A stretch of DNA of 34,578 nucleotides, from NCBI GenBank assembly GCA_028280575.1, contig JANQLN010000112.1:1-34578 (forward strand), given 5' to 3'. The notes below the pieces were generated by a model that saw only the letters and a list, made by a program, of their open reading frames with translations, had not been told where the DNA came from and ran no database searches. Positions 8,054 through 34,578 of this stretch are shown piece after piece (within the stretch, counting starts at the first letter, position 1; each line of letters opens with the position of its first letter). The position numbers and the translations under genes were made by a program. This DNA comes from Clostridia bacterium. Its GTDB lineage: Bacteria > Bacillota > Clostridia > Acetivibrionales > STF1-152.

Positions 8054-8743
8054 TTAGCTCTTTCCGTCATCTGTCATACTTCCGTCCAGCCATACAGGTA
8101 TTGTATCACCAAGAAATTTTGGTTTTGTTTTAAGTATGTTAACCTGTACAAAATCCTTGAATCTTGCAGCAATCTCTCTGTTTTTATAATATCTCATATA
8201 TGCATACGTTCTTTTATCGGCCGGAACTCCATAAGCCTCAATGCCCAGTTTCCTGGCAATATAAAGTGCTCTTTTCAAGTGGTATTCCTGTGTAACTATA
8301 ACAGCCTTATTTATCAAAAAGATGTCCCTTGCCCTGTACATACTGTCATAGGTATTAAATCCCGCATGATCCATAAAGATATCCTTGCGGTCTATGCCTT
8401 TTGACTGTGCATACTCTCTCATTGCGTTTACTTCATCATAATTTACCTGCCCGTTGTCACCTGTTACGACCAGCTTGCGGGCCTTGCCTTTTTTATAAAT
8501 ATCAATACCGGTGTCAAGCCTGTCCTTAAGCATTACGGAAGGTTTCCCGTCCGGAAAAACATACGCACCCAAAACAATAACGGCATCAGCTTCAGGAATT
8601 TTATCCTGTCCCATAATGTACTTTGAACCGGTATTCTTTACATGAAAATTGACACCCATTACGGTAAACACTCCCGAGAGTATAATAATGAGGCCTAATA
8701 TGACAACCTTTTTCAGCATTTTTATTGATTTAACCCTTCCCAA
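8054..8743 (-). CDS. SanA/YdcF (DUF218) family membrane-anchored protein
   Basis: A 229-residue protein. One N-terminal transmembrane helix (about 9-29, VVILGLIIILSGVFTVMGVNF) is followed by an extracytoplasmic DUF218 domain. Family landmarks: ADAVIVLGAYVFPDGKPS, LKDRLDTGIDIYKKGKARKL, VVTGDNGQ, the acidic DEVNAM segment and ITQEYHLKRAL-like IVTQEYHLKRAL. SanA/ElyC/YdcF proteins are linked to envelope barrier or lipid-carrier metabolism. It appears to start at TTG (8743): AAAGGTGA lies about 5 nt upstream. An ATG eight codons later (8719) has only a distant purine tract. It is co-transcribed with the MFS gene 3 bp downstream. Exact role unknown. Confidence 0.85.
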   Translation of the reverse strand: MGRVKSIKMLKKVVILGLIIILSGVFTVMGVNFHVKNTGSKYIMGQDKIPEADAVIVLGAYVFPDGKPSVMLKDRLDTGIDIYKKGKARKLVVTGDNGQVNYDEVNAMREYAQSKGIDRKDIFMDHAGFNTYDSMYRARDIFLINKAVIVTQEYHLKRALYIARKLGIEAYGVPADKRTYAYMRYYKNREIAARFKDFVQVNILKTKPKFLGDTIPVWLDGSMTDDGKS

Positions 8744-19139: not shown

Positions 19140-20294
19140 CTAAATAAGCGTCAGCGGAGGTATCTCCAGTACTTTTCCTCCGGCCCTCATTGATTCGGCG
19201 GCTGCACATCCTGCGGCCACACTCATTCTTGCAGCAAGGGGATTAGTAGGCGGCTTTTTATTGTAAAGAATCATATCAATAAAATCCTTGCACAAATCCG
19301 GGTCGGCTCCCCAGTGCCCGCCTTCCGACTCCTTGATATCATAAGTCCTGTCCGAAAGCTCGCACCATGTATTGGATTTTCTGGTCTTGACCCATATTTT
19401 GTTGTCCGGCTGGGAATTTTCCACACTTCCCTCAGTACCAATGAAAACAAAATTCCTGTGGTAGTCCGGAGTAAAATGGCACTCCGTATAGGTAGCCTTG
19501 ATTTTGTTGTCAAGTTCCATTATCATGACATTATTATCCTCCACATCTACTTCCTTTCTGAATGCACACATGTATCTCCCATTATGGTCGTCAAGGACCG
19601 CTTCCGTACAGGTTTCCTTTTCAGGACATTTTGGGCAGGTAAGGTCATCCGGTTTATCACCGCCGAAGAAATCCAGGCTTCCAAAGGCAGTAACTTTTTT
19701 AGAGTAGCTGCCCGTAATCCAGTGAATCAGGTCAATATCATGTGATCCTTTCTGCAGCAGCAGCGATGTGGTATTCCTGGCGACGGCATGCCAGTCATGA
19801 TAATAATACAGTGAGCCCTTGCCCACAAAATGCCTTACCCATACGGCTTTAATCTGCCCAATCACACCGGAATCAACTATTCCCTTAACTGTCCTGAACA
19901 TTCTTGTATATGGCATATTAAACCCAATCATAAGCTTTTTGCCCGATTGCTTCCAGGCTTTTAATATCCTGTCACAGCCCTCCACGGTTATTGCCAGGGG
20001 TTTTTCACAAAAAACATGTTTCCCCGCCTCCAATGCAGCTATTGCCTGTTCTTCATGAAATTGGTCCGGAGAAGCTACGGCAACTGCATCTATGTCTTTT
20101 CTCTCCAATAATTCTTTGTAATCGGTGGTTAAAAATGCGTCTTTGTTGACCCTGTCTTTAAAATCCTCAAGCTTTTTAAGGTATACATCGGCGCCCGCTG
20201 CCACAATGGATTTTCCTCCCGGCCTGTGCCAGTGGCTTGCAAGATTCCTTCCTCTCCCGCTTACTCCTATCATACCGATTCTAACCTGGTCCAT
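19140..20294 (-). CDS. Gfo/Idh/MocA family NAD(P)-dependent oxidoreductase
   Basis: A 384-residue cytoplasmic dehydrogenase for sugars or sugar derivatives. The N-terminal Rossmann fold has GMIGVSGRGRN (residues 7-17) and the catalytic-lysine motif E97-K98-P99 in HVFCEKPLAIT. The C-terminal domain carries the KGSHDIDLIHWITG helix (182-195) expected for this family. An insertion holds four cysteines, C220-x2-C223-x5-C229-x13-C243, which could bind zinc; I know of no fixed role. It is the last gene of the importer operon, 36 bp after the propeller gene, with AAGGAT about 9 nt before the ATG. Members oxidise a sugar hydroxyl, often at C3, or act in inositol or keto-sugar pathways. The substrate here is unknown. 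Confidence 0.92.
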   Translation of the reverse strand: MDQVRIGMIGVSGRGRNLASHWHRPGGKSIVAAGADVYLKKLEDFKDRVNKDAFLTTDYKELLERKDIDAVAVASPDQFHEEQAIAALEAGKHVFCEKPLAITVEGCDRILKAWKQSGKKLMIGFNMPYTRMFRTVKGIVDSGVIGQIKAVWVRHFVGKGSLYYYHDWHAVARNTTSLLLQKGSHDIDLIHWITGSYSKKVTAFGSLDFFGGDKPDDLTCPKCPEKETCTEAVLDDHNGRYMCAFRKEVDVEDNNVMIMELDNKIKATYTECHFTPDYHRNFVFIGTEGSVENSQPDNKIWVKTRKSNTWCELSDRTYDIKESEGGHWGADPDLCKDFIDMILYNKKPPTNPLAARMSVAAGCAAAESMRAGGKVLEIPPLTLI

Positions 20295-20330
20295 TAAAAC
20301 TATCCTTTCCTTTTTGTTTATTTAAAAATA

Positions 20331-22343
20331 TCAGTCCCATTTTGGGTAGGAAAATTCTCCCCTGTAGTTTGAACCGTTAAAATGGGGATACTTTAACGGT
20401 GTATATACCTTCTCCCCTCTAACCTGGTTGTCCTGGGTGTATATATACATCCTCCTTTCATCCCACAATACTATTTCATCCCGTCTGTCTCCTGTCAAAT
20501 CAATTACCTCTGCACACAGCTCCGGATGCCCGTCTTCCGGGAATTTGACTACCTGGCTGCCGTGCCCGTCTATCATGCCTCCAAATTGATTATTGCCGTT
20601 TAGAAGTATCAGCTCCGTTCCGTCTCCGTTCCAGTTTACCGGAGCAATAATGTTTCCATTTGCAGAGGGCTCAAACTGGTGGAGAAGGTCCCCTTTGCAG
20701 TCAAATATATATATTATTCCCTGGTGTCCCCAGTATGTGGTAATGCAAATCTCCAGTCCGGGCAAATCCGGCCTGTAGTTTCCGGCACTAATACGCTGGG
20801 CATGGCCAATCAATTGTTTTGTAAGGATGTTTCCCCCGGTATCAACAAGCATAAATCCCTCGTGACCGGAAGCCATTCCTATAACTATTCCCGGGTTGGA
20901 AGGATCAAAATGCCCGATTATAATTTCATCGGTATGGTCTTTTTCAATGGGAAGGGACCACAAAAGCTTGCCCTTATGGTCAACAAGGTTGTAGCATGAT
21001 ATCATTTCATCCCTTCCGTCACCGTCGACATCAAAGGTATAGGGAAAATGTCCGGTGTTTCCATGCCGGAATTTCCACATGAAATTCAATTCGCTGTCAT
21101 AAACCCATACCCTGTTGTACCTGTCCTTTATTAAAATATCCGTGGCCTTTTCCCTGCCTGAAAAGTTCGCAATACGTATGGAGTCAACGTTTATCCGGTC
21201 AAAGGCAAATTTCCCCGAGGGCAGCATAATAAGCTCTTCGTCAGGCTCTTCGGAAAGTGGTGTGGGCACTGATTTTTTTATTTTCCCTGTTTTGCCGTCC
21301 AGAATCATAAGCTTGAAATTCCTTGCAATGATAACCTCGTCCACACCGTCCAGGTCCACGTCGCACACCTGGAATGGAAGGTCCGCCGTAATATATGCAT
21401 TGTCAAGTGCCAAAGAAGGCTCTCCAACCTGCCACAGAATATTCCCGTCAAGGTCAGCCGCAGTAAGGCAGCTGATATGGGCATAGGCATCATTATGTAC
21501 CCTTTTTTGATTCTGGGCCAGTACCATGAACATCTCTTTTGTACCTGTCAAATGGCCGAACCGTATCTGCCTTCCCGCTCCAAAATCCTTAAGCTCCAGT
21601 GCCTTCCATAAAACAGGCAGCGGGTATTTCCTTCTTAGCCTGGAAAGCCTTGCCTCCCTTTGTTTTATTGCACTGTAAAACCTGTCTGCATCACCCCTGT
21701 TCATGGATACCACTATGCCGGCAAACTGTGCGGGAACCCTTGAAGCAAGGCCGATTTTTCCATTTTGCAGGCTTCTATCATCTGCGGACAGGCACTCTTT
21801 TCCATCCACAAAGCAAACAATTTTGCTGCCGTTTAACTCTACCTTGAACCTGTAATAAGTATCGCAGTCATAAATGTATTCAATAGCGGCCAGATCTTTT
21901 ATATCCTCCTGCTCCTGCTTAAAAAGACGCAGCTTCCTCCCTTGGAAGCAAAGTCCGTAGTGGAGGCGGCTGTGCACATACCTGAACAGAATGCCCGTAT
22001 ATGAACAGGTGGAAAGCATCCTTACGTCAGCCTCCAGCGTATAATCCTGCCACAGCTCTTCTCCTGTAACAAGCATGGGACACACATCTAAAACAGGGTC
22101 GTCCGAAGGCAGCTGCAGCCTTGTCTGTTCCATGTATTTCTCCCCGTTTTCCTCCGTCACAATCCATGAAGGGCCGGTCCACTGGGGACATGTCACAGGG
22201 TCGTACCATCTGCCCCTGTATCCCTTCGGCGGATAATAGTGATATTCACCCATTGCAGAATGGGCAGGGTCATAGGGAAATTCCCCAATGGGAAAATCCC
22301 TGAAATCCTCCTTGATTAAGTTAACCTTTGCCTCTTCACTCAA
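20331..22343 (-). CDS. lectin-like/FG-GAP beta-propeller protein
   Basis: A 670-residue protein without a signal peptide. Residues ~1-215 look like a laminin-G/DUF1080-type jelly roll (VTGEELWQDYTLEADVRM, GILFRYVHSRLHYGLCF, FVDGKECLSADDRSLQNGKI, LASRVPAQFAGI). Residues ~250-660 form a propeller of FG-GAP/VCBS-like repeats with calcium-type loops: DVDLDGVDEVIIAR, FDVDGDGRDEMISCYN, NWNGDGTELILLN and DLTGDRRDEIVLWD. The propeller recalls rhamnogalacturonan lyases of PL11, but the lectin-like N-terminus does not fit and no catalytic assignment is safe. It starts at TTG (22343), inside the last 8 bp of the preceding gene and with AGGGGG about 8 nt upstream, so translation is coupled. It may be a lyase, an epimerase scaffold or a glycan-binding protein. 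Confidence 0.75.
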   Translation of the reverse strand: MSEEAKVNLIKEDFRDFPIGEFPYDPAHSAMGEYHYYPPKGYRGRWYDPVTCPQWTGPSWIVTEENGEKYMEQTRLQLPSDDPVLDVCPMLVTGEELWQDYTLEADVRMLSTCSYTGILFRYVHSRLHYGLCFQGRKLRLFKQEQEDIKDLAAIEYIYDCDTYYRFKVELNGSKIVCFVDGKECLSADDRSLQNGKIGLASRVPAQFAGIVVSMNRGDADRFYSAIKQREARLSRLRRKYPLPVLWKALELKDFGAGRQIRFGHLTGTKEMFMVLAQNQKRVHNDAYAHISCLTAADLDGNILWQVGEPSLALDNAYITADLPFQVCDVDLDGVDEVIIARNFKLMILDGKTGKIKKSVPTPLSEEPDEELIMLPSGKFAFDRINVDSIRIANFSGREKATDILIKDRYNRVWVYDSELNFMWKFRHGNTGHFPYTFDVDGDGRDEMISCYNLVDHKGKLLWSLPIEKDHTDEIIIGHFDPSNPGIVIGMASGHEGFMLVDTGGNILTKQLIGHAQRISAGNYRPDLPGLEICITTYWGHQGIIYIFDCKGDLLHQFEPSANGNIIAPVNWNGDGTELILLNGNNQFGGMIDGHGSQVVKFPEDGHPELCAEVIDLTGDRRDEIVLWDERRMYIYTQDNQVRGEKVYTPLKYPHFNGSNYRGEFSYPKWD

Positions 22344-25233
22344 CGGGCTTCCCCCTTTTTAATTCCTGTTTTTTTAAAATAACCTTTTGAATATGCCTTT
22401 TCAACCTCTCCAGGTTTTCATTTCCAATATCCTCGAATTGTACATACCCTGCATCGTCAAAATGTTTTATTTGGTTTTCCCCTTTAAGATTAATAAAGCT
22501 TTTTATATACTCCTTAAGCTGTATATCATTAAAAGCACATATTGTTTTAAAGGTATGCAGGTACTTTTGTATTTCCATTCCCTTCCTTATGGCTTTAAGC
22601 CTCAGGCTGACCGCTGGCTGTTTCAAGCCGAAACGGCTGCCGGGATATAGTATGGCCGTATCCTGGGGGTGCTCATAGTTTCTGTCAATGCCAAAATTAT
22701 TCCATGGAAGTATCCTGGAAGCACCGTTAACATACGCGTTGATAATCCAGACACAAAGGCTTGCATTTGATTCATAAATCTTGCTTAATCCTCCATATCC
22801 CCAGTATTCCTCGTTGAAAACCTTTTTCCTTTTTTTTGCCCGGTCGGCAAGATATTTAAAAGACCTCAAATTAAGGGCAGCTATATCCAGCTTGTTGTCA
22901 AGGTAATCAAAAATATGATGATAGCGGGATATATCCGACCTGTACTTTATGTTGCTGCCTGATTTAAGTTCCTTTTGAGCCTCTTTTAAAATTTCCCCGA
23001 AAAAGGCGGTTGCTTTGAAATCAGAAGGATATACCTGTTCCTCTAAAATCCACCATGAAGTACCCTTGCCGTCGTCCCCCATAACCTCATAGCTGGTCCA
23101 GAAATCCTTACGGCTGCGTCCCCTTTTTGAAAGATGGTTCTTTATCCTGCTGTAATGCTTGTTGTTCGTATAAAACAAAAACTCAACATTCTGCCAGCCC
23201 TTTTCGTCAAAATGCTTTATAAAATCCTTGACAACACTTTTTATGCCCAGGCGGTATCCTGGCTTAAAATCATTTTTTATTCCTCCGGACTTTAATGCGT
23301 ATTCATTTATCATCCCCGGATAATCCCTGTTTTCAATATCATGTCCCATATACCTGTCGACGGGCATAGGCCAGTTTTCATGAAAGGGAAGGTAAATATG
23401 GGTAACCGGCACTTTTTCTCCCTCCGACTCCATCATATAGCTACCGTCAAGATATCTTCCAAAGTGTGCATCCCACTCACTCCAATCGGTCACCCTGGCT
23501 TCTCCGTCAATATATCCTATTTTTGGGGCGAACCCTTCAAATACTTTTCCGTATTGGGTATAGGGCAGGATATTAATACCGCAGTTGTGCCTGTAGGCCG
23601 TTTCATAGTATGCGTCCTCAACCGCTTCCCTGTCCGCGTCCCTGTAATTGTAGCCCATAAACCTGTAAACAGGCATATAACCATTTAGTTCAAAACCAAA
23701 ATCCGCCTTCTCAAGGCTTATATCCTCAACCTTTATATAAACCGGGATATTTGCCCTGCTGCTCCCGTTTCCAATTGTTATCTCCAATTCAAAATCCCCT
23801 GCCATACAGTCTTTTAAAATCTCAAAATCCACAAATAAAGACTGGAAACGCTGTCCGGGTATCTTATTCTCTTTAAACGGTATATCAAATTCTGCTGCAT
23901 TCCCAGCCGGAACCGCAACCTCGGGATACCAGCCCTCATTGCACTTTAAATACCACACCCTGTTAAGATTGACCCTGCACCCGTCCCACTGCTTGCTCTT
24001 TGCCGCAGCGGTAAAACTTTGCCCTTCATTCATCCTGTTTTCAATTAAGAGCTGAAGCCCCAGTTTTTCTCCCGGTGCAGCCGTCAATCTTATCTTTTCC
24101 CCGTCAAAGCAGCGGTTTTTATAGTCTAAAAGATTGCATACGCCCTCCGGCAAATAGTCCCCGGAATCCATTTCAAATATATTCCCGTTAACAGGATTCG
24201 CTTTGCTTATATCGTCCAGTACATATACTGCAAAGCCGCCCTTTGAAAGCATTGCCCCCTTTGTAAAAGCATCCTCAATATTTACGTTCTCTATTTCCGG
24301 CCTTTTTACCGCAGCTCCTGTTTTTACCTCTGCATAGACAGGCTCCGACTCAAATCCGTTATTTGCAACGGTAAGGGCAAACCGGTAATGCCTGCCGGGC
24401 TTTAGGTGCCCTATTTCAGTACTTATATGCCCTTTTTCCGTATTATAATCCGGTATGTCGAATTTTTGGACCCTCTTCATCCTTCCCAGGGCTGTTTTTT
24501 CTTCCGATACATATATATTAAAAAAACGGTATTCTCCGGGAGGCCCGTTTTCAATTTTCCATGACAGTTTTACCGAAGTATATTCAAAGCTGTATTCGTC
24601 ACTCACAGCTTGGGCCTTTAGGGAATAAGCCCTGTCCGGCACATTGTATTCAAAGTCTTCATAATCAACCACCAGCTTGGGAACCATTCCGTTTCGCGGA
24701 TTTACATTGAACAGTTTAGGCTGCATATCCCTTTCGGCATCCTTGTACGGCTGTGATTTTTCATCAATAAGCCCCAGTCCGAAGCTTTGCCCGTTAATCA
24801 TTGCGTAAACAAATTTAGGAGGCAAATGTATACAGGCAATCCTTGTATCACTTTCGTACTCCACATTTTCAACGGAATGAAAGGAGTTGCCGTTCCCCAT
24901 TATAACGTCTGTAAACCATTTATCATCAGCCCAATTCTTCCCCCTGTCACAGTATACCAGGGTTGCAAAGCTGCTGTTCCAATCCTGTGATATACTTGTT
25001 ATATCAAGCTTTAAAGGATGCTTTTCACCCTCAACCTTGAGATAAAGCCTGGCCCCGTTGATTTTTTTGTTTTTGAGCCTGCCTGCATCAAAGCTTATAA
25101 TTGGAATCCTGCATATTGCAGCCATCTTGAGCACATCACGGCTATCCTCAGGCGGCAGGTCCATATGCCAGTCTTTTTCATAGATATTACTGTTTATTGT
25201 TCCCCACTTCCGTGCCTTAAAAGTTTCCTTCAT
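22336..25233 (-). CDS. DUF4091-like glycoside-hydrolase-type protein
   Basis: A 965-residue multidomain protein, cytoplasmic (no signal peptide). Residues ~1-200 resemble a DNRLRE-type beta-sandwich (ARLYLKVEGEKHPLKLDI, FGLGLID, PKLVVDYED). A fibronectin-III-like module follows (~215-320, SVKLSWKIENGPPGEYRFFNIYVS...HYRFALTVANNG). After a further beta domain, ~530-920 looks like a TIM barrel of the DUF4091 type: FGFELNGYMPVYRFMGYNY, HIYLPFHENWPMP, VEFLFYTNNKH, VFNEEYWGYGG, ASRILPWNNFG and the closing RLKAIRKGMEIQKYL, matching the xRLKALRxGxEDYEYL end of DUF4091 proteins. Candidate acids include the Glu pair in FNEEYWGY; catalysis is unproven. GGGAGAGGAT precedes the ATG. It follows the M14 gene after 23 bp and overlaps the propeller gene by 8 bp. 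Confidence 0.75.
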   Translation of the reverse strand: MKETFKARKWGTINSNIYEKDWHMDLPPEDSRDVLKMAAICRIPIISFDAGRLKNKKINGARLYLKVEGEKHPLKLDITSISQDWNSSFATLVYCDRGKNWADDKWFTDVIMGNGNSFHSVENVEYESDTRIACIHLPPKFVYAMINGQSFGLGLIDEKSQPYKDAERDMQPKLFNVNPRNGMVPKLVVDYEDFEYNVPDRAYSLKAQAVSDEYSFEYTSVKLSWKIENGPPGEYRFFNIYVSEEKTALGRMKRVQKFDIPDYNTEKGHISTEIGHLKPGRHYRFALTVANNGFESEPVYAEVKTGAAVKRPEIENVNIEDAFTKGAMLSKGGFAVYVLDDISKANPVNGNIFEMDSGDYLPEGVCNLLDYKNRCFDGEKIRLTAAPGEKLGLQLLIENRMNEGQSFTAAAKSKQWDGCRVNLNRVWYLKCNEGWYPEVAVPAGNAAEFDIPFKENKIPGQRFQSLFVDFEILKDCMAGDFELEITIGNGSSRANIPVYIKVEDISLEKADFGFELNGYMPVYRFMGYNYRDADREAVEDAYYETAYRHNCGINILPYTQYGKVFEGFAPKIGYIDGEARVTDWSEWDAHFGRYLDGSYMMESEGEKVPVTHIYLPFHENWPMPVDRYMGHDIENRDYPGMINEYALKSGGIKNDFKPGYRLGIKSVVKDFIKHFDEKGWQNVEFLFYTNNKHYSRIKNHLSKRGRSRKDFWTSYEVMGDDGKGTSWWILEEQVYPSDFKATAFFGEILKEAQKELKSGSNIKYRSDISRYHHIFDYLDNKLDIAALNLRSFKYLADRAKKRKKVFNEEYWGYGGLSKIYESNASLCVWIINAYVNGASRILPWNNFGIDRNYEHPQDTAILYPGSRFGLKQPAVSLRLKAIRKGMEIQKYLHTFKTICAFNDIQLKEYIKSFINLKGENQIKHFDDAGYVQFEDIGNENLERLKRHIQKVILKKQELKRGKPVE

Positions 25234-25256
25234 TTTATCCTCTCCCGGTTTGTTTA

Positions 25257-26351
25257 TTACAGTCTTTCAATGCAATACTCCGCAGCACAGCCGTATAAAA
25301 GGTGCAGAAGCTTTAAAATGTCCTCATACCCGTAAAGATTCTTTTCGTATATGGTATGGTCCGGTTTCCTGGTGTCCGAACACCCCTGGGGGCTCTCATA
25401 TGCAAAACAAATATTCGCACCCGTGTGGTAGAGCATGCTGGTAAGCGAAAATGAAGCTTCATCCTCATTGTCAAGGCCCTCTTCATTAAGTATATCGAAT
25501 TTCCTGCCCGTATATCCATACTGCTCCAGCACGGAATAAAATCTCTTGCAAAACTCAAATATGCTTTTCCTGGCTTTATAAGGGATATATGAAACGGGAA
25601 GTATGGAGGGGTCATATTCATGGCTGTGCATGTTTAAAAGCATATCCGGAGCTTCTTCCCTTGCAAGCTTGAGGATCGCCTTTGTGGTTTCGCTCATGGG
25701 TGAAGACCAATCGTCATGCTGCATGTTAATTCCTGCGTCGTCAAAATATCCCCCCAGTATTCCCACATCGCCGACCATGGGATGTATGGCCTTGCAATAA
25801 GGCCAGTAATAGGGCTTTCCGTTTTTACGGGTACCCTGTCCCCACTTTGACATTTCTGTTTTGGGAAGGCCCACCCAGCCGTCATACGGAACCCTTGCCC
25901 TTCCGTCAGGATTGCCCAGGGGAACTATCACAAGCCTTAGCTGCTCAAGCTTTTCCAAAAGGGCAGGCTGCTTTTCACCTTTTATGTCTTTTCCTGTTTC
26001 CATAAGGCTAATCAGTGACAGGGCTCCCACCATTGATTCCATTTCCTGGCCGTGCACTCCGGCCAAAATCATCAAAACAGGACTGGTGCGTTCTTCCCGC
26101 CTGTAATAATGGCCCTTGTATCCGGCCGCCACGGCCGAACCAAAATTAGCCCTGCCTTTAAGCCCTGGTTCCGGGTCTCCGTAAAAAACGGCCCTGACCT
26201 TTCTTCCCCCGGGTGAAACAGAAAGCAAGGCGACCTTGCCTTTACTTATTTTATTGTCAATAAAGCCTTGTATCTTATCCTCACGGGAAATCCACCAGCC
26301 AGGTATTTCCACAGGGCTTGCCATCACACTGCCGCCTTTGTAATTATCCAT
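25257..26351 (-). CDS. M14 family zinc carboxypeptidase-like protein
   Basis: A 364-residue cytoplasmic protein with the M14 active site. Zinc ligands H100 and E103 are in AGVHGQEMES, followed by NPDGRAR (147-153). The third zinc His is in LLNMHSHEYDP (H242 or H244) and the catalytic Glu is E319 in CFAYESPQG. The start at 26351 is chosen because GGAGG lies 8 nt upstream; the ATG five codons earlier (26366) has no site. M14 enzymes remove C-terminal residues or deacylate amide-linked groups; several bacterial ones act on cell-wall peptides or amidated sugars. Its position inside a sugar-import operon, 77 bp after the second permease, suggests a glycopeptide or amide-decorated sugar as substrate. 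Specificity is inferred, catalytic motifs are seen. Confidence 0.88.
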   Translation of the reverse strand: MDNYKGGSVMASPVEIPGWWISREDKIQGFIDNKISKGKVALLSVSPGGRKVRAVFYGDPEPGLKGRANFGSAVAAGYKGHYYRREERTSPVLMILAGVHGQEMESMVGALSLISLMETGKDIKGEKQPALLEKLEQLRLVIVPLGNPDGRARVPYDGWVGLPKTEMSKWGQGTRKNGKPYYWPYCKAIHPMVGDVGILGGYFDDAGINMQHDDWSSPMSETTKAILKLAREEAPDMLLNMHSHEYDPSILPVSYIPYKARKSIFEFCKRFYSVLEQYGYTGRKFDILNEEGLDNEDEASFSLTSMLYHTGANICFAYESPQGCSDTRKPDHTIYEKNLYGYEDILKLLHLLYGCAAEYCIERL

Positions 26352-26396
26352 ATTCTGCGCCTCCATTGTTTTTTCATATGCTTATCCTGTATTTTA

Positions 26397-26428: not shown

Positions 26429-27313
26429 TCAACCCTTAAGCGCCCCTATCATAACGCCCTTGGCAAAATATTTCTGGATAAAGGGGTACACACACAGTAT
26501 TGGGACCGTACCCGTTATTGTTACCGCATGTTTTATTGTGTCGGACACCTGTGCAACTTCCGCAGTTGCAGCACCTGTAGACATTGAATCTGTTTCATTG
26601 TTGATCAAAATCTCCCGCATAACCAGCTGTAATGGAAATTTATCCCTGTCCCTTATGAAAATTGCCGCCCCAAACCATGCATTCCAGTGGGCCACGCCAT
26701 ACCATAGAAACATAACGGCAATAACGGGCAGTGACAGGGGAAGTATTATCCTGAACAATATTGTGAACTCACTTGCCCCATCTATAACTGCCGATTCTTC
26801 AAGGCTTCTCGGTATTCCCATGAACGAAGTCCTCATGACAATAATATTATATGTTGATACAAGGCCCGGTATTATAAGCGCCCATAAGGAATTATAAAGC
26901 CCAACGCCGTTTACAAGCAAAAACAATGGAACCAATCCTCCGCTGAAATACATGGTAACAAGCATCATGACCATAACCGGCTTTTTGAGCATTACTCCTC
27001 TCCTGGAAAGGAAGTAGCCTGCTATACTGGTAGCCAGGACATTTATTGAAGTCCCTGCGACCACTATAAAAAGAGTGTTTTTATAACCTATTAAAATCAT
27101 GGGGTTTTTGAATACTTCCCTGTATGCATCCAAATGTACGCCTCCAAGGGGCCTTATCAGCAACCCCCTGTGCTGCATAAGCAGTCCGGCATTGCTCATA
27201 GATGAAAAAAATACGTATATAAAGGGATAAAGCGTAACCAGCATAACCAAAATCATAAACAATATGTTAAAGACATCAAACAGTATTTCTCCTGCGCTTC
27301 TTTTATTTAACAT
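26429..27313 (-). CDS. carbohydrate ABC transporter permease (MalG/YtcP type)
   Basis: A 294-residue inner-membrane protein with six predicted helices. The EAA loop that contacts the ATPase is seen as EESAVIDGASEFTILFRIILPLSLPVI. It pairs with the LplB-like permease encoded 15 bp upstream to form the channel of a CUT1-type importer. The length and the motif HWNAWFGAAIFIRDRDKFPLQL are typical of YtcP-like permeases that work with LplA/YtcQ-type lipoproteins in Bacillota. Such systems import oligosaccharides, often uronate- or mannose-containing. GGAGGGG precedes the ATG. The operon encodes no ATP-binding subunit, so a shared MsmK-type ATPase is presumably used. Confidence 0.95.
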   Translation of the reverse strand: MLNKRSAGEILFDVFNILFMILVMLVTLYPFIYVFFSSMSNAGLLMQHRGLLIRPLGGVHLDAYREVFKNPMILIGYKNTLFIVVAGTSINVLATSIAGYFLSRRGVMLKKPVMVMMLVTMYFSGGLVPLFLLVNGVGLYNSLWALIIPGLVSTYNIIVMRTSFMGIPRSLEESAVIDGASEFTILFRIILPLSLPVIAVMFLWYGVAHWNAWFGAAIFIRDRDKFPLQLVMREILINNETDSMSTGAATAEVAQVSDTIKHAVTITGTVPILCVYPFIQKYFAKGVMIGALKG

Positions 27314-27328
27314 AAAATATCCCCTCCT

Positions 27329-28285
27329 TTACCATAGGCTGTAATCGCTTACTTTTCTGCTTACGTTGTTGGCAATTATCAGCAGTGTAAAATTTATCAC
27401 CGAGTTAAATATCCCCACAGCCGTACTATAGCTGAAATCATATTGCTCCAGGCCCTTTCTGAATACAAATGTTGATATGACATCTGCTGTTTCATATGTG
27501 ATAGGGTTATACAAAAGGAGTATTTTTTCAAATCCAAGGCTCAAAAGCCTCCCAATATTTAATATCAATAATATTACAACAGTAGGTGCAATACCGGGAA
27601 GCGTTATATGCCACGCCCTTTTCAGCCTTCCCGCCCCATCTATTATTGCTGCTTCATATAATTGTTGGTCTATTTGTGATAATGCTGCAATGAATATAAT
27701 TGACCTGAAACCCATTCCCTGCCAGATACCTGATGAAATGTAGATGGTGCGGAATAAGCCGGGTTTTTGCAGCAATGGCGCCCTCTCTCCGCCCAAAAGT
27801 ACAATTAAATCGTTTATAAGCCCGTCTGAGGCAACAAAATCCGTAATCATACCGCATATGACAACTATTGATATAAAATGGGGCAAATAGGATATTGTCT
27901 GGACTGTCCTTTTAAATTTATTGCTTCTTAATTCGTTCAGCAGCAGCGCAAAAAGTATGGGCATTGGAAAAGAGAAAATAAGCCCGTAGAAATTTATCAA
28001 AAATGTATTTCTTATAAGCCTCCAAAAATAATAGCTTCTGAAAAAATTTACAAAATGGTCCAGACCGACCCAGGGGCTTCCGAGAATGCCCAGTCCCGGA
28101 GAATACTTTTTAAATCCGATCTGCAGCCCATATATCGGCCCATAGTGAAAAACTATATAATAAGCTATTATGGGCAGTATCATAAGATACAGTACTTTAT
28201 TGGCAGCCAAATCCTTTAAAAGCCTTTTAAAAAAACCTGCAGAACTGTTTTCATAAGCTTTTGTTCCAGTATGAATGGTACCCAT
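27329..28285 (-). CDS. carbohydrate ABC transporter permease (MalF/LplB type)
   Basis: A 318-residue inner-membrane permease with six helices. Its EAA loop reads EAAIIDGAGRLKRAWHITLPGIAPTV. The ATG at 28285 has AAGGAG 6 nt upstream and begins the protein just before the first cytoplasmic segment; the frame is open to 28354 but that extension runs through an intercistronic hairpin, so it is rejected. It forms the importer with the MalG-like permease 15 bp downstream and the binding lipoprotein upstream. YteP/LplB-like motifs (FHYGPIYGLQIGFKKYSPGLGI, GSPWVGLDHFVNFF) are well conserved. The transported sugar is unknown. Confidence 0.95.
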   Translation of the reverse strand: MGTIHTGTKAYENSSAGFFKRLLKDLAANKVLYLMILPIIAYYIVFHYGPIYGLQIGFKKYSPGLGILGSPWVGLDHFVNFFRSYYFWRLIRNTFLINFYGLIFSFPMPILFALLLNELRSNKFKRTVQTISYLPHFISIVVICGMITDFVASDGLINDLIVLLGGERAPLLQKPGLFRTIYISSGIWQGMGFRSIIFIAALSQIDQQLYEAAIIDGAGRLKRAWHITLPGIAPTVVILLILNIGRLLSLGFEKILLLYNPITYETADVISTFVFRKGLEQYDFSYSTAVGIFNSVINFTLLIIANNVSRKVSDYSLW

Positions 28286-28319
28286 ACAAAGCTCCTTTCT
28301 TTCCTGAAAATATAGCACT

Positions 28320-28345
28320 CCGGGGGTATCCTGCAATACCCCCGG
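28320..28345 (-). other. GC-rich intercistronic hairpin between binding-protein and permease genes
   Basis: Exact 10-bp arms (28320-28329 and 28336-28345, CGGGGGTAT type) with a 6-nt loop lie between the binding-protein stop and the permease start. No T-run follows on the minus strand. This is the usual place for a stem that protects the binding-protein mRNA or partially terminates, giving more binding protein than permease. Confidence 0.65.
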
Positions 28346-28365
28346 GTATATCATATCCGGTTCAT

Positions 28366-30003
28366 TTAATCGCTCAAGTACCTGTCATAGGCCTTTTGGT
28401 AAATCTCTATTGCCCTTTCTATGCCCATTTTTTTCAATTGATCCATGTATTTGTCAAATTTATCCAAGCTTTCTTCTCCAAGGAGGAATTTTAAATACAT
28501 TTCATCATTATAGGTCTTGATTTGTGCCATTATGTTTCCCATCTCTTCAGCGTCGGCCACATCTGTCCTAATAGACGGAAACTTGTGGTCAAGCTCATTC
28601 GAATCTGACCATAACTCGACCGCCTCCCATTGGGACGGCAAAGTAAGATCAAATGTTGTCATTTGCGGATGCCTTACATAGGGCCCTGTAGCATAGGACC
28701 TGGTGTATATTCCCTTCATCTGGAAAAAGCTTCTTTCATCAGGGTCATTATGCATAATTTCCGTAGGCACGATTTTTCCTCCGGCCTCAACGTTATAGCT
28801 TATTCCTTCAATTCCAAAGTTGGCAAGCATCTGCCCTTCTTCACCGTAAATATAATCAAGAAGCCTTGCGGCAATCTCAGGGTGTTTACAGGCTGCCGTT
28901 ATTGAAGCCACCCTGTTATTTAAAGAAAATGCCCATGATTTATGTCCGAACTTCGGAGTATCACCCTTTTTCAAAACAGGCCATTTGGTCGCTGTCAGGG
29001 TGTAATTTGAATCCGTTTCCCTTGCTATATCTTCCAAGAGACTGATATGTCCCGTATATCCTACAAGGGCTCCCGATGTGCCGTTGGTCATTTTGGCATA
29101 TTCAAGATTTTTGTTCATTGTTACAATATCCTTATCCAGCAAGCCTTCTTTATACCAGTGGTTCACAAGTCCCATAACATCCTTGTACCTGGAATCGTAT
29201 GGCCCGTAGTGTACCTTTCCGTCTTCCACAAAAAAACTGGTGCCTACGCCATAAATGGAATGGAAAAATGTTGCAAAACGTGAGCTTCTTTTTGTCATGG
29301 GTGCTTCGGCGCCCTTTTTGTCCCTGAAGGCAACAAGCATTTCATACCATTCGTCACTGGTTTCCGGACGGTCCAGGCCTAAATCATCCAGCCAGTCCTT
29401 TCGTACCAGGGGACCAAGTATCGACTTTCCGTCTTCAATAGGTGCCAGTCCTCCATACAGGCCTTCATTGGTTTTTATCATCTTGTCAAGCATGGGATTC
29501 TCAGACAGCCATTTGACATAATTAGGCATATATCCTTCTTCCATCAGACCGTTAAGGGGTATAATTACTTTATCTTCAATTGCTTTAGGCGTGCCGCCTG
29601 AATAAAATTTATCCCATGAGTATTCAACTATATCGGGCAGTTCACCTGTGGCAACCATTAATCCGAACTGCTCGTCACTTGTGGGATGCATAAATTCAAT
29701 ATCAATGCCTGTTTTCTTTTCAAGCTCCTTGGCAAATTCTGTTTCATTTGCACTTTCAAAGCTTTTGCTTACATTGGGATTAAGACCATGCCACCATGTT
29801 ACTTTGACATTTGTATCCATAGGATAAGAAAATTCTTCTTCTTGCGCTTCGGTTATAGCATCATCACCTTTGCCGGTGTCCATATCCTGTCCCTTATTGG
29901 GCTCGTCATTATCGCCGTTTTCTTTTGCACACCCTGCAAACAAGCTTACCGTTAAAAACGCAGCCAGAATTAGAGAAAAAAGTTTGAAAAATTTCTTTTC
30001 CAT
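28366..30003 (-). CDS. extracellular sugar-binding lipoprotein (LplA/YtcQ type)
   Basis: A 545-residue solute-binding protein of a CUT1 importer. The lipoprotein signal peptide has a Lys-rich start, a hydrophobic core and lipobox L-F-A-G-C25, so the mature protein is lipid-anchored outside the membrane. An acidic linker (about 30-57, GDNDEPNKGQDMDTGKGDD) precedes the binding fold (VKVTWWHGLNPN, then MVATGELPDIVEYSW, typical of family-1 sugar-binding proteins). Its long size is characteristic of LplA-like proteins. AGGAGG precedes the ATG. It is first of a probable seven-gene operon and has a strong promoter and operator upstream. Ligand unknown; the neighbouring enzymes suggest a sulfated or mannose-containing glycan. 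Confidence 0.95.
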   Translation of the reverse strand: MEKKFFKLFSLILAAFLTVSLFAGCAKENGDNDEPNKGQDMDTGKGDDAITEAQEEEFSYPMDTNVKVTWWHGLNPNVSKSFESANETEFAKELEKKTGIDIEFMHPTSDEQFGLMVATGELPDIVEYSWDKFYSGGTPKAIEDKVIIPLNGLMEEGYMPNYVKWLSENPMLDKMIKTNEGLYGGLAPIEDGKSILGPLVRKDWLDDLGLDRPETSDEWYEMLVAFRDKKGAEAPMTKRSSRFATFFHSIYGVGTSFFVEDGKVHYGPYDSRYKDVMGLVNHWYKEGLLDKDIVTMNKNLEYAKMTNGTSGALVGYTGHISLLEDIARETDSNYTLTATKWPVLKKGDTPKFGHKSWAFSLNNRVASITAACKHPEIAARLLDYIYGEEGQMLANFGIEGISYNVEAGGKIVPTEIMHNDPDERSFFQMKGIYTRSYATGPYVRHPQMTTFDLTLPSQWEAVELWSDSNELDHKFPSIRTDVADAEEMGNIMAQIKTYNDEMYLKFLLGEESLDKFDKYMDQLKKMGIERAIEIYQKAYDRYLSD

Positions 30004-30056: not shown

Positions 30057-30072
30057 ATTGCAACGCTGCAAT
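30057..30072. promoter_or_regulatory. CG-centred operator at the start of the importer operon
   Basis: ATTGCAACGCTGCAAT is symmetric at seven of eight position pairs around the central CG. It overlaps the predicted transcription start (centre near +5), a repressor position. The site at 34317-34332 shares 12 of 16 bases. The form (even palindrome with central CG) fits LacI/CcpA-family regulators, none of which is encoded in the window. Confidence 0.6.
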
Positions 30073-30075
30073 TTT

Positions 30076-30104
30076 ATTATAGGAAGAATGCTTTTTAATG
30101 TAAA
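30076..30104 (-). promoter_or_regulatory. sigma-A promoter of the importer operon
   Basis: On the minus strand: TTTACA (30104-30099), a 17-bp spacer and a perfect TATAAT (30081-30076). The start would be near 30069, 66 nt before the lipoprotein ATG. AATGCT occurs twice as a direct repeat (30087-30092 and 30103-30108), 16 bp apart, as a possible activator half-site. Confidence 0.75.
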
Positions 30105-30200
30105 TGCTCAATTATTTGAATTTATATACCAATATTAGAATAAAAATCGACAATTTATCGGTTCTGTTTACTTTATCTAAAATTAAGATCTCCTTTTTCC

Positions 30201-32066
30201 TTAATTTAAAGGATTTAAGAATTCAATATATCCATGCCTTTGCAAAAATACATAATATTCCACCAAGTCCTCAAGCAGCTGGCAAGCATTTTCTTTCCCA
30301 AGCTCAACTGCGGTAAGTCCGGCTATTTCCAACAGGTTTCTTTTGCCGTCGGTCCAAAAAAGCGGACAGTTCATATCATAGCTGTAAAAGGGCCTGTATT
30401 TTGTACTGTTTCTTGTCTTTTCGTCCAGTGTATGAAATGTCAGGCATCCCCTGACTATCCTTCTGGGAACAATGGACCTTGCCCTTGCCTCCAGCTTCCT
30501 TCCCACGTCAAAAATAAAATCGGGATATGCTTTGGGTTTAAGCCTTTTGGCAGTCTCTTCAACGGCAAATAAAATATCCGTGCCTCCGGCCAATTTTTTA
30601 AGCTTAAGGCATCCCTTGAAAAAGGCATTTCTTACAAGCTTTTCGTACGCCTTGTTTTGACAGGGTTTCTCATCGGCAAGCTGATCCGCATGCTCCTCTA
30701 TCCTTTCAAGCAGCCATATTATTTTATCCTTTTCAGGGTATGCCATAAAATATAAAAATGCCCCGCATATTAATCCGTTCCGCTTTAAAATTGAAGGCTC
30801 CAGCCTTTCCGGTATATCAATTGAAGAATGATAGCTCTTTGCAGGGTGCATAAGCATTGATACCGTTGGGACATTAAGCATGGGATCGGATAAAAGCCCG
30901 TCTCCTAAATCAAAGCTGCCTTCAACAAACTCAAAAGCATCCTTTTTATATGACTGGTATACACGGTTTAATTTTGAAATAAGCGTATCTGTGTAGGACC
31001 AGTTTGAAAGAGGATTATGCCATATGTGCATCATTGCCTTATCGGCACTTCCAGCTCCGACCATATCCATATTTAGGGCACCAACTGCCTTCTGTATCCT
31101 TTCGGGATATTTTATGCAGTAGCCCATAATCCCCATACTTTCATATCCCATTATTATACGGATATTATTAAGCGGTTTTTTAATCCTTTTATCTTTTATT
31201 GCCTTTACAATAGCTGCAGCAAGCTCCAGTACAGCTCCACACCCGGACGCATTGTCGTTGGCGCCCGGTTCGTACAGGTGGCCGCAGAGCAGGACATCTT
31301 CATTTTTGCTGCCTGTCCCGGGTATCATTCCCGATACCGTATATACTGTCCCGTCATAAAACCTTGTGTCCACCTGTGCATGAAGCTTGAGCCTTTTGTT
31401 TTTTACAGCCGCCTTATGAATTTCATTTCTCAGATTATCTCCTTCCCGCGGGGAGAGGCTGAAGCCGAAAAGTCCCGTATTGTTTACCGGTATTATAAAG
31501 CTGTTCTCCCACCTGGTGGCGTCATATACATCGCTTCTTTTTTCCCTTGCTCCGGGGAGCATGGGCATAAAGTCCGAAATAATCCCGGAAGCTCCCCCAT
31601 TTATAGCAGGCTGCAGCACAGTCCGGGGACTGCGCGACGTAAATACCAATTTATCCTTTACATCCATTCCCCTTAACTTCTCCGGAGCATCAGCCTCTAT
31701 AACCTCAGCAGTTATTCCGCCTTTTGGGGTAGGCGCGCTGCACATCATCAGGCAGCACGGAACCCTATTATAATCCGCAATTACCGAATTTTGCGAATCA
31801 GCTGTTCTTAGAACCGCACCGGAAACATCCCACGCACGTGGTATTACCCAATCTCCGTATGCAGTTTTTCCGTCTGCCTTAAGGGGAAGCATCTCAACCT
31901 CTTTAAGCCCTGCAATTTTCATCTGCTCCGCACAATAAAGCGCCGTCTTTTTAAAATTTGCAAAATCAAACCATCTATCACTGCGGTGTATTTTCTCAAC
32001 ATGATAAAAACAGCTCTTTTCATTAAAATACTCCGACAGGATGGAAAAAATTTTTTCATACCACAT
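30201..32066 (-). CDS. M28/DUF4910-type aminopeptidase-like protein
   Basis: A 621-residue cytoplasmic protein. An inserted PA-like domain (about 115-240) interrupts an M28-type metallopeptidase fold. Metal-site motifs are LCGHLYEPGANDNASG (H263, D271), GYESMGIMGY (E309), NMDMVG (D334) and YHSSID (H413). In standard M28 enzymes E309 would be followed by a second, zinc-binding Glu; here it is Ser310, as I recall for DUF2172/DUF4910 relatives (PETIG-like). The C-terminal ~80 residues (FWTDGKRNLLEIAGLTAVELG, LVEYYVFLQRHGYIEF) look like a winged helix, also typical of that group. GGAG lies about 8 nt before the ATG. It follows the serine hydrolase fusion gene after 158 bp. Natural substrates of this group are poorly known. 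Confidence 0.82.
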   Translation of the reverse strand: MWYEKIFSILSEYFNEKSCFYHVEKIHRSDRWFDFANFKKTALYCAEQMKIAGLKEVEMLPLKADGKTAYGDWVIPRAWDVSGAVLRTADSQNSVIADYNRVPCCLMMCSAPTPKGGITAEVIEADAPEKLRGMDVKDKLVFTSRSPRTVLQPAINGGASGIISDFMPMLPGAREKRSDVYDATRWENSFIIPVNNTGLFGFSLSPREGDNLRNEIHKAAVKNKRLKLHAQVDTRFYDGTVYTVSGMIPGTGSKNEDVLLCGHLYEPGANDNASGCGAVLELAAAIVKAIKDKRIKKPLNNIRIIMGYESMGIMGYCIKYPERIQKAVGALNMDMVGAGSADKAMMHIWHNPLSNWSYTDTLISKLNRVYQSYKKDAFEFVEGSFDLGDGLLSDPMLNVPTVSMLMHPAKSYHSSIDIPERLEPSILKRNGLICGAFLYFMAYPEKDKIIWLLERIEEHADQLADEKPCQNKAYEKLVRNAFFKGCLKLKKLAGGTDILFAVEETAKRLKPKAYPDFIFDVGRKLEARARSIVPRRIVRGCLTFHTLDEKTRNSTKYRPFYSYDMNCPLFWTDGKRNLLEIAGLTAVELGKENACQLLEDLVEYYVFLQRHGYIEFLNPLN

Positions 32067-32224
32067 AATTTAACTCCACTCATAACATGTTTTAGTAAAT
32101 TGTCATTTTTTTAATTGTAATACAATATATCCATACTGCTAATTTTATATTTGACCTCATAATTTAAGGAATTAAATCCGTTTCATACTCCTTTAAAGAA
32201 ATCTTAACATAAGCAAAATGCCCA

Positions 32225-34270
32225 TTATATATTTTCGTTCACAGTTAGCTCAGCTTTACGCAAACAGAAGTTATCGTTACCTGCAAATGCCAAATATACC
32301 GTTCTGCCGTCATCACTCATCCATTTGGTTGGAAAGCAGCCAAGGTCACCGGGCCCCACATCCCATTTTTCGAAGAAATAAACGGTGCTCCATGGTCCCC
32401 ACGGCTCAGGAGCTTCATAAATACCCACCCCTCCAATAAATCGCGTATCACTTCCCGCCGCATTAATCTGCTGCCACATAAGGTATCTTCCAATTCCCTC
32501 ATTATAGCTGATGCTTGCCCTCCTGCAATTGTTGGCGTGTTCCAGTATAGGTCCCCGTTTGCCTATCTCCTTGCTCCATAAAGGCTTGTTTTTTTCATCA
32601 GCCGAAACAAAAAATTCGTATGAACTCCGGTCCGTTATACGGTCTTTATGTACCCGCATCAGTATAAATTGGCTTGCCTGCTCATAGGCGCTGGGATTGT
32701 CATGACTTGCCATATACACAAAATTATCACGGGCTCCACTGTAGTTCCTGCCGTAATTTACAAAAAGAATATGCCCAAACTGCTCAAATTTCCAATCGTT
32801 CCATTCCCATGTCTTTGAATAATCCCTTGAACAGGCCAAACGGGAGTGTTTTCCATTTTTATCCGCATTGCGCACCCATAAATAAAGTATCCCGTCTGCC
32901 ATAAGCAAACCGCTGCACTTTTCACCCCTGGCTCCATATCCGCGGTTTTCGATGCTGGAACGGATGTTTTCACACTTAAAATCAGCAGGGGTTCCACTGA
33001 TTTTTGCAAAACCAAGTCCAAGCTTTAAGGGAAGTGAAGGCTCAAATCCATATCCGTCTCCATAAGCCGTATATATGTTACCGTCGTCGGCCCATGTCAT
33101 TGGCCAGTTATCACTTCCGTCCCTTTTGGCCCCACCGGCTGCATGCCTTATAACACTTGAAGCAGGCGCCCATTCAATACGGGTAATCTTTTTACTCCAC
33201 GGGCACGGAACAGCACTTTCCAGTGCTTCCATCAAAGGTTCACCTATATACTTATCCACATCCGAATCTCCAAACTCTTTAGGCCTGGCATTGTCAAATC
33301 CTTTGCCGTTTCTTACAACAATCAGCTTCCTGCCGGGAATCACCAGCAGTATCTGCCCGCCTGCTCCTATGGCCAGAAAGGAATCCCATGGAAGGGAAGG
33401 CCAGAGCTTGCTTCCTTTAAGGTCGGAATTAATCCTCCATGTCATTCCATAGCAAAAGGGATGACCACTGTGGCTTAAGGCTCTTTTGACAGCCGCTTCA
33501 TCAATAAGCTGCATGCCTTCCCAGCAGCCCTTGTTAAGCATAAGCCTCCCTATTTTCGCCATTGTGCCGGGAGTGATTAATCCGCCTCCCCATGCAGCTA
33601 CAAGCTTTAAGCCGTCTAATTCAAATGTCTTTCCATAACCAACGGACCATTCGTCCCTGGAAATGCCCATTGGATTTATAATACGCTCCCAGAGCAGGGT
33701 ACGTATGTCTTTATACCCGGAATTCCCTAAAGCTGCCGTAACCGTATAGGCAAGCATGGCAATGCCGGTATTGCTGTAAAGGTAATCTGTTCCCGGTGCA
33801 AAGACTACCGGAGCCTCATCCCTTGCTATCTGAAACGGGACCGGGTCCTGCCTCCAGAAATTCCCTTTCCATCCCGCAAGCTCTTCATGAGGCGTATCTC
33901 CGTCCCTGGCATCATCAAGGCCGGATGTGTGAGAGGCAAGATGCCTTATGGTAATATTTGATTTTACCCTGTCACTTTCCCATTGAGGTATATATTTACA
34001 GGCATAATCATCTATATCAATAAGCCCGTCCTGTATTGCCAGCATTAAAGACAGCCCTCCCACAACAGCTTTTGCGGCGGATGCGGTACTATGCCTTCTG
34101 TTCTTATTCCATCCATGGGAATATTTTTCAAAAACAATTTTGTCGTTCCTGATAACCAGGTAAGCTTTACTGTTGTTTTTCAACAGCCCATGCCATTGTT
34201 CTTCAAGCTTTTCAAAATTCATCCCCTGGCTTTTGGGCGTTGCGCTTTGCCATTTAAACACGTCACTCAT
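32225..34270 (-). CDS. serine hydrolase (class C beta-lactamase fold) fused to a propeller-like domain
   Basis: A 681-residue cytoplasmic two-domain protein. Residues ~15-330 are a beta-lactamase/esterase-type serine hydrolase: nucleophile S64 in S64-A-A-K67, Y165-S-N167 as the second motif and GAGGQ (302-306) in place of the third (K/H-x-G). Residues ~340-681 form a repetitive beta domain resembling DUF4185/sialidase-like five-bladed propellers (MTWADDGNIYTAYGDGYGF, GLLMADGILYLWVRNAD, SRDYSKTWEWNDWKFEQFG, DDGRTVYLAFAGNDNF). The first domain probably removes an acyl or peptidyl group; the second probably binds or cleaves the glycan. GGAGGT precedes the ATG. It has its own strong promoter and an operator shared with the importer operon. 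No signal peptide, so it acts on imported material. Confidence 0.85.
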   Translation of the reverse strand: MSDVFKWQSATPKSQGMNFEKLEEQWHGLLKNNSKAYLVIRNDKIVFEKYSHGWNKNRRHSTASAAKAVVGGLSLMLAIQDGLIDIDDYACKYIPQWESDRVKSNITIRHLASHTSGLDDARDGDTPHEELAGWKGNFWRQDPVPFQIARDEAPVVFAPGTDYLYSNTGIAMLAYTVTAALGNSGYKDIRTLLWERIINPMGISRDEWSVGYGKTFELDGLKLVAAWGGGLITPGTMAKIGRLMLNKGCWEGMQLIDEAAVKRALSHSGHPFCYGMTWRINSDLKGSKLWPSLPWDSFLAIGAGGQILLVIPGRKLIVVRNGKGFDNARPKEFGDSDVDKYIGEPLMEALESAVPCPWSKKITRIEWAPASSVIRHAAGGAKRDGSDNWPMTWADDGNIYTAYGDGYGFEPSLPLKLGLGFAKISGTPADFKCENIRSSIENRGYGARGEKCSGLLMADGILYLWVRNADKNGKHSRLACSRDYSKTWEWNDWKFEQFGHILFVNYGRNYSGARDNFVYMASHDNPSAYEQASQFILMRVHKDRITDRSSYEFFVSADEKNKPLWSKEIGKRGPILEHANNCRRASISYNEGIGRYLMWQQINAAGSDTRFIGGVGIYEAPEPWGPWSTVYFFEKWDVGPGDLGCFPTKWMSDDGRTVYLAFAGNDNFCLRKAELTVNENI

Positions 34271-34294
34271 TTAAGCATACCTCCATCTTTCCAT

Positions 34295-34311
34295 AATATC
34301 TTTAAGATATT
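34295..34311. repeat. 8-bp inverted repeat in the fusion-gene leader
   Basis: AATATCTT-T-AAGATATT is an exact inverted repeat 25 bp upstream of the ATG at 34270 and just upstream of its ribosome site. It could fold in the leader mRNA or bind a protein. It lies downstream of the operator. Confidence 0.4.
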
Positions 34312-34316
34312 CTCGT

Positions 34317-34332
34317 ATTTAAACGCTTAAAT
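34317..34332. promoter_or_regulatory. CG-centred operator of the serine-hydrolase fusion gene
   Basis: ATTTAAACGCTTAAAT is symmetric at seven of eight position pairs around CG. It lies just after the predicted start (centre near +13), where a bound repressor would block elongation. It contains the AANCGNTT core seen in LacI/CcpA-type sites. Confidence 0.6.
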
Positions 34333-34343
34333 TACTTATGTCA

Positions 34344-34372
34344 TTTATATCACTTTTATATATTAATGTCAA
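34344..34372 (-). promoter_or_regulatory. sigma-A promoter of the serine-hydrolase fusion gene
   Basis: On the minus strand: perfect TTGACA (34372-34367), a 17-bp spacer and TATAAA (34349-34344). The block TTGAGCATTGACATTAA around the -35 matches the importer promoter at 16 of 17 bases. Expected start near 34337. Confidence 0.78.
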
Positions 34373-34390
34373 TGCTCAAAGCATTTTGAG
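34371..34390. repeat. two overlapping dyads upstream of the fusion-gene promoter
   Basis: AATGCT-CAA-AGCATT (34371-34385) and CTCAAA-GCAT-TTTGAG (34375-34390) are both exact inverted repeats and overlap the upstream edge of the -35 box. AATGCT also occurs twice at the importer promoter, so it may be an activator half-site. Confidence 0.45.
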
Positions 34391-34578
34391 TTTTCACAGC
34401 AATGACACGGGGATCCCTTTAAAAATTTGATTTCCGGGACATATTTTCAATCATAAATTTAAGTTTCCCCAATTTTAAAATTTAGAAGATTTATGTGTAT
34501 AATGAAACAGTTATCATTGGGAATGAATTTAGACCAGCTAATAGTTGTCAAGGGTTTTTTAAAAAAAAGTTAAAAAAC

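Follow-up and report, generated by a model that had tools for sequence, protein, structure and literature searches.

In Caldicellulosiruptor bescii, local regulators of the AraC family (e.g., PecR2 and HemR) are predicted activators of CUT1 importers, and their predicted sites fall within the promoter or ahead of it, in some cases as tandem repeats (PMC8579813; comparative work). LacI-family repressors, of which 72% are autoregulated, mostly bind even palindromes with a central CG, and most of their sites are located 30-140 bp ahead of the start codon (PMC4052901). For two-TM dCache-AraC one-component regulators (TM-dCache-TM-HTH_18) encoded beside a binding protein and two permeases, the literature that we searched held no defined operator. 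The locus described here has this architecture, and we propose TTG-N3-ATTKACA as one such operator. The locus is like those of PecR2 and HemR (PMC8579813) in that an AraC-type HTH regulator is encoded at the importer locus. It differs in that the proximal half-site overlaps the -35 box and in that the motif appears to be lineage-specific and shared, judging from its letters, with a hydrolase gene 4 kb away.

The window, i.e., the whole 34,578-nucleotide stretch of DNA that was analyzed, is an entire contig (C95) of a 4.35-Mb genome in 143 contigs. Its minus strand carries a glycan-utilization locus in which the genes are ordered toward lower coordinates, starting from a serine-hydrolase fusion gene (Table 1). 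Between this gene and the importer operon lies a peptidase gene, which may be transcribed from P2. Beyond the AraC gene, there are a GH38 gene and three sulfatases. The first permease is ~60% identical between related importer loci. In the 768-aa AraC protein, two hydrophobic segments (residues 16-36 and 298-323) surround a dCache domain (42-284) and are followed by a C-terminal HTH_18 domain (E = 5.9e-17), which identifies it as a membrane one-component regulator.

The beta-lactamase plus DUF4185 architecture of the fusion gene is widespread, with 36-51% identity over most of the length (L160-L189) to homologs in MAGs of Planctomycetes, Verrucomicrobia, Bacteroidetes, Chloroflexi, and other phyla. 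In its own order, 39 genomes were sampled and yielded partial matches only, and the genes are absent from one small genome of the same family. Neither the block nor the 16-mer described below was found upstream of any of the 13 homologs from other phyla that were checked.

Table 1. Features of the window, by position from its first letter
Feature	Position	Strand	Description or basis
P1, predicted importer-operon promoter	30076..30104	-	-35 TTTACA 30104-30099, 17-bp spacer, -10 TATAAT 30081-30076; consensus match
P2, predicted fusion-gene promoter	34344..34372	-	-35 TTGACA 34372-34367, 17-bp spacer, -10 TATAAA 34349-34344
P1 17-base block	30111-30095	-	TTGAGCATTTACATTAA; sequence
P2 17-base block	34379-34363	-	TTGAGCATTGACATTAA; sequence
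P1 putative activator element	30099..30111	-	TTG-AGC-ATTTACA, final six bases are the -35 box; framework common to paralogous importer promoters
P2 putative activator element	34367..34379	-	TTG-AGC-ATTGACA, final six bases are the -35 box
Inverted repeat at P2	34371..34385	-	AATGCT-TTG-AGCATT, a form that P1 lacks; sequence
P1 16-bp near-palindrome	30057..30072	-	ATTGCAGCGTTGCAAT; overlaps predicted start, putative LacI-type operator
P2 16-bp putative operator	34317..34332	-	ATTTAAGCGTTTAAAT; core identical (R/Y) to operator of C113 LacI gene
Possible repeat of P1 element	30120..30132	-	TTGGTATATAAAT; 21 bp upstream of element, TTG in register; weak, inference
Possible distal half-site of P1	30141..30153	-	TTGTCGATTTTTA; 42 bp upstream of element, best-scoring offset, individually not significant
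Fusion gene	32225..34270	-	Beta-lactamase-fold serine hydrolase + DUF4185; downstream of P2
M28/DUF4910 peptidase	30201..32066	-	Between the two units
Importer substrate-binding protein (SBP_bac_1)	28366..30003	-	First operon gene under P1
Two importer permeases (BPD_transp_1)	26429..28354	-	CUT1-type importer
M14-like peptidase, 965-aa protein, RGL11_C-like protein, GFO/IDH oxidoreductase	19140..26366	-	Downstream in importer unit; predicted operon members
AraC-family protein, 768 aa	16612..18918	-	Candidate activator
End of dispersed MITE-like repeat	34453..34532	-	Upstream of P2, context outside the module; profile search

An initial annotation had read P1 and P2 as two minus-strand promoters with 17-bp spacers and a common block differing at one base, and all of these letters proved correct. 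The block, TTGAGCATT[T/G]ACATTAA, is identical at 16 of 17 positions. The annotation had also noted paired AATGCT elements near the -35 of both promoters; both pairs are present, but their layout is not common to the two: at P2 (34385-34371) the copies are inverted around a 3-bp gap, and at P1 they are repeated directly, 16 bp apart. Outside the block, the identity of P1 and P2 is at random level (13/45 bases upstream, 20/60 downstream), so we rejected the idea that the block is the remnant of a promoter-segment duplication. It is the longest -35-spanning block common to non-duplicated promoters in our sample (254 promoter-like sites, 191 sampled upstream regions). Several unrelated promoter pairs reach a -35-spanning match of 16 bases when one mismatch is allowed, so the block by itself is only moderately unusual. 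Genome-wide, its pattern has two exact, one one-mismatch, and four two-mismatch matches, and four of the five near-matches are coding.

We compared the promoters of paralogous binding-protein genes, and the closest of them (38-42% identical) retain TTG-N3-ATTTACA in position: TTGTTGATTTACA on contig C62, TTGTTAATTTACA on C84, TTGAAGATTTACA on C45, and TTGAGCATTTACA at P1. The remainder of these promoters has diverged. P1 and the C45 promoter nevertheless agree at 26 of the 50 bases upstream of the element, above the maximum of 22 in a shifted control. Within 36.8 kb (the 191 upstream regions), TTG-N3-ATTTACA occurs five times, all at importer loci, namely P1, the SBP paralogs on C62, C84, and C45, and a gene beside the C84 importer, where the site lies within a duplicated promoter region. 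By this count, four of five close SBP paralogs and one of 186 other regions carry the motif (Fisher p = 4.6e-7), in a framework that was picked out after inspection rather than beforehand and of whose ten fixed bases six are partly expected because the element overlaps the -35 box. A TTG 7 bp upstream of TTKACA was found at 7 of 62 sites, every one on importer contigs. Across the genome, TTG-N3-ATTKACA has 41 matches, compared with 22 for a reversed control; of the 40 distinct places that we classified, about two-thirds fall within coding DNA, and intergenic matches followed by a good -10 belong mostly to these importer loci and P2. In two related genomes of other families, the framework is present at G009:C34 and G030:C3, and at G009:C74 with one change. 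A blind test of 29 homologous importers class-wide found the motif in one, which is not above expectation and suggests that the motif is lineage-limited.

That class-wide result, together with the 16-base blocks of unrelated pairs, would fit a simpler reading in which the block is a chance or generic likeness of AT-rich promoters and the SBP paralogs have kept ancestral promoter letters. We consider this somewhat unlikely, because none of the remaining 55 TTKACA sites has the TTG at -7, the framework persists in SBP promoters that have otherwise diverged, and P1 and P2 agree at 16/17 positions in the block but only at random level in its flanks. Based on its distribution, we conclude that the block is a real regulatory element, of a putative activator type.

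Longer promoter segments are also shared among these importers. On C84, a uroporphyrinogen-decarboxylase-like gene and the importer operon have a long near-identical promoter segment (elements at 6647-6659 and 8285-8297, minus strand), and this duplicated promoter adjoins the dCache-AraC gene. The importer paralogs at G009:C34 and G009:C74 (L069, L302) have a common promoter segment, in which 42 of the 50 bases preceding the element are identical. Relative to the start codon it is located at about -222/-224, so that transcription from the predicted promoter would produce a leader of ~180 nt.

Both window promoters have AGC as their N3 triplet, and the other sites have TTG, TTA, AAG, ATG, or TTC. 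The exact sequence TTGAGCATTKACA occurs at P1 and P2 only in the whole genome, which, with the common AGC, points to one local regulator for both units of the window. In this genome, each element-bearing importer locus has an AraC-family gene, mostly a two-TM dCache-AraC as in the window. In all, dCache-type AraC genes were found at six importer loci (the window, C62, C84, C106, G009:C34, and G030:C3), and the other five proteins share 23-34% identity with that of the window over nearly their full length; the C45 importer locus has a soluble AraC instead. The C106 locus includes a close SBP paralog with an AraC neighbor, and the element is not present there. The first recognition helix of the C106 AraC reads AANTGK, while most others read Y[IL]S[KH]; this difference may accord with the missing motif, although it is suggestive only.

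Altogether, the claim of one activator for both units is strengthened, as the framework recurs at AraC-linked paralogous importers and N3 is identical only between P1 and P2. The membrane AraC protein, first put forward as a candidate activator, becomes the leading one through the linkage of the element to AraC genes. The best reading is thus that a single local activator would serve both units, with the 768-aa AraC as the best candidate. The -35 and -10 of P1 come close to consensus, a feature not required of a promoter that depends on an activator. At P1, TTG recurs in register at both -21 and -42. Possible upstream repeats of the element have their best offsets at -42 (P1), -42 (C84), -43 (C45), and -36 (C62), with p values of 0.05-0.39 each, and P2 has no clear distal half-site upstream of its element.

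Downstream of the block, the two 16-bp near-palindromes are as the annotation described them: CG-centered, symmetric in seven of eight pairs each, with 12 of 16 bases in common. Even and CG-centered, they have the form of LacI operators, and their positions before the start codon (-69 to -54 at P1, -62 to -47 at P2) fall within the range of LacI sites. CG palindromes with at least seven of eight symmetric pairs occur in 16 of the 191 upstream regions, compared with 2.0 expected after shuffling, an excess which suggests that each 16-mer is probably a real operator. One could also take the palindromes as transcript hairpins rather than protein sites, given that the P1 16-mer can pair into a 6-bp stem where the transcript is predicted to begin. 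The leaders, however, fold no better than shuffles (z of -0.2 and -1.1), the P2 16-mer is unfolded in the best structure, and neither leader has an Rfam match, so that this explanation seems highly implausible.

With the palindromes taken as LacI-type operators, we asked which repressors could own them. An exact copy of the P2 core, TTTAARCGYTTAAA, occurs just twice in the 4.35-Mb genome: at P2 itself and on contig C113, where it lies 20-33 bp ahead of the start of a LacI gene. This gene carries TTTTAAGCGCTTAAAT at -34, just past its -10, and is directly followed by a sulfatase (C113:308-2969, L197). The P1 core has no second exact place in the genome and was found upstream of none of the 19 LacI genes; with 0/19 matching, the other LacI genes of the genome were rejected as owners of the P1 site. 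The half-sites of the two 16-mers differ at two adjacent bases per half (TA vs GC). A pattern pooled from both 16-mers is exact at P1 and P2 only, and its near-matches are nearly all coding, an outcome that the initial annotation had named as counting against its own proposal.

The annotation had proposed one LacI-family repressor on both 16-mers, combined with one activator on both blocks. A shared repressor would account for the 12 common bases, the same AGCGTT center, and the similar placement at the start, and one LacI protein can tolerate degenerate sites. Yet the differences are symmetric, as expected for two specificities, only the P2 core matches the operator of a LacI gene, and the near-matches of the pooled pattern are coding. 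A single repressor common to P1 and P2 is therefore not supported by these sequence comparisons, and the combined reading appears quite improbable. For P2 itself, we lean slightly toward the 16-mer being an operator of the C113 LacI protein, given the match of the cores.

Global carbon repression is another potential link between the promoters, if both 16-mers were CcpA/cre sites. The cre-like consensus is TGWAARCGYTWWCA, and TTTAAGCGTTTAAA at P2 is two changes away from it. P1, however, differs at five positions, the outer G/C of the consensus (outer TG and CA) are replaced in both 16-mers by inspection, and the P2 core is exact at one LacI gene only rather than at many promoters. We regard the cre reading as very improbable.

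As in described LacI-family operators (PMC4052901), the sites here are even 16-bp CG-centered palindromes, and the P2 core precedes the start of the C113 LacI gene itself. The difference is that two different half-sites are found at two otherwise similar promoters, with the C113 gene on another contig. CG palindromes precede many of the LacI homologs found in the order, and none of the P2 type was seen among them. The HTH of the C113 LacI protein (SIATVSYVING) has Tyr where most LacI proteins have Arg. In the window, ATTTAAGGAATTAAAT (32162-32177), before the M28 gene, has the arms of the P2 operator without the CG center.

P2 lies ~80 bp from the end of a MITE-like repeat that has at least 41 copies in the genome, often at contig ends, and interrupts the assembly at many of them. 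Full copies are about 217-269 bp long, and their ends form imperfect inverted repeats (79-81% over 57 bp). Members of the family, full or partial, lie at 34453-34532 (minus strand) in the window, C9:23432-23648, C73:16146, C50:14429, and C113:166-235. At the 30 repeat loci that we read, the next gene mostly starts within ~130 bp and is oriented away from the repeat. We also considered whether TTGAGCATT is itself an end of this repeat. The ends read TTTGAGTTTCCCC or TTTGAGCATTCCCC, and a profile search found the window copy and not the P1 and P2 blocks, so this origin was rejected. Contig C113 also begins in a copy of this repeat family. With P2 near one copy and C113 beginning in another, it is possible that the C113 LacI gene is the divergent neighbor of the fusion gene.

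The explanation that we favor, with somewhat better than even confidence, is a two-unit regulon that is switched on by the membrane dCache-AraC through the -35-overlapping element and has separate LacI operators. The analysis shows the sequences and where in the genome they occur, their linkage to AraC genes, and the match with the C113 operator; binding, activation, ligand sensing, and repression we infer. P1 and P2 would be two promoters of one local regulon in the glycan-utilization locus, each with an activator half-site TTG-AGC-ATTKACA that ends in the -35 box. The 768-aa AraC would sense an extracellular ligand via its dCache domain, and its HTH domain would bind the element and contact RNA polymerase (class-II-type activation), thereby turning on the importer operon jointly with the hydrolase fusion gene. 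At or just after the start of each promoter, a LacI-type operator would be bound by a different repressor, the C113 LacI protein at P2 and another one at P1.

We judge that this would be a new example of a type already described, in which AraC controls a CUT1 importer and the LacI operators are separate, and that the possible framework-plus-triplet site code is the sole part of specialist interest. It is a tentative and rather unlikely generalization that dCache-AraC importer regulators have the common framework TTG-N3-ATTKACA, in which the N3 upstream of the -35 serves as an address label for each paralogous regulator. If so, many importers would be insulated from each other within one genome, and a regulator could gain targets, such as the hydrolase gene, by copying its triplet. 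If the two-unit regulon is real, the element would be the first concrete operator for two-TM dCache-AraC regulators beside importers, and each unit would have a repressor arm of its own. Because one sensor would switch on both units, the serine-hydrolase/DUF4185 fusion would be connected with uptake of one specific, probably sulfated, glycan. Linking genes through a regulon in this way is a practical means of finding substrates for uncharacterized enzymes.
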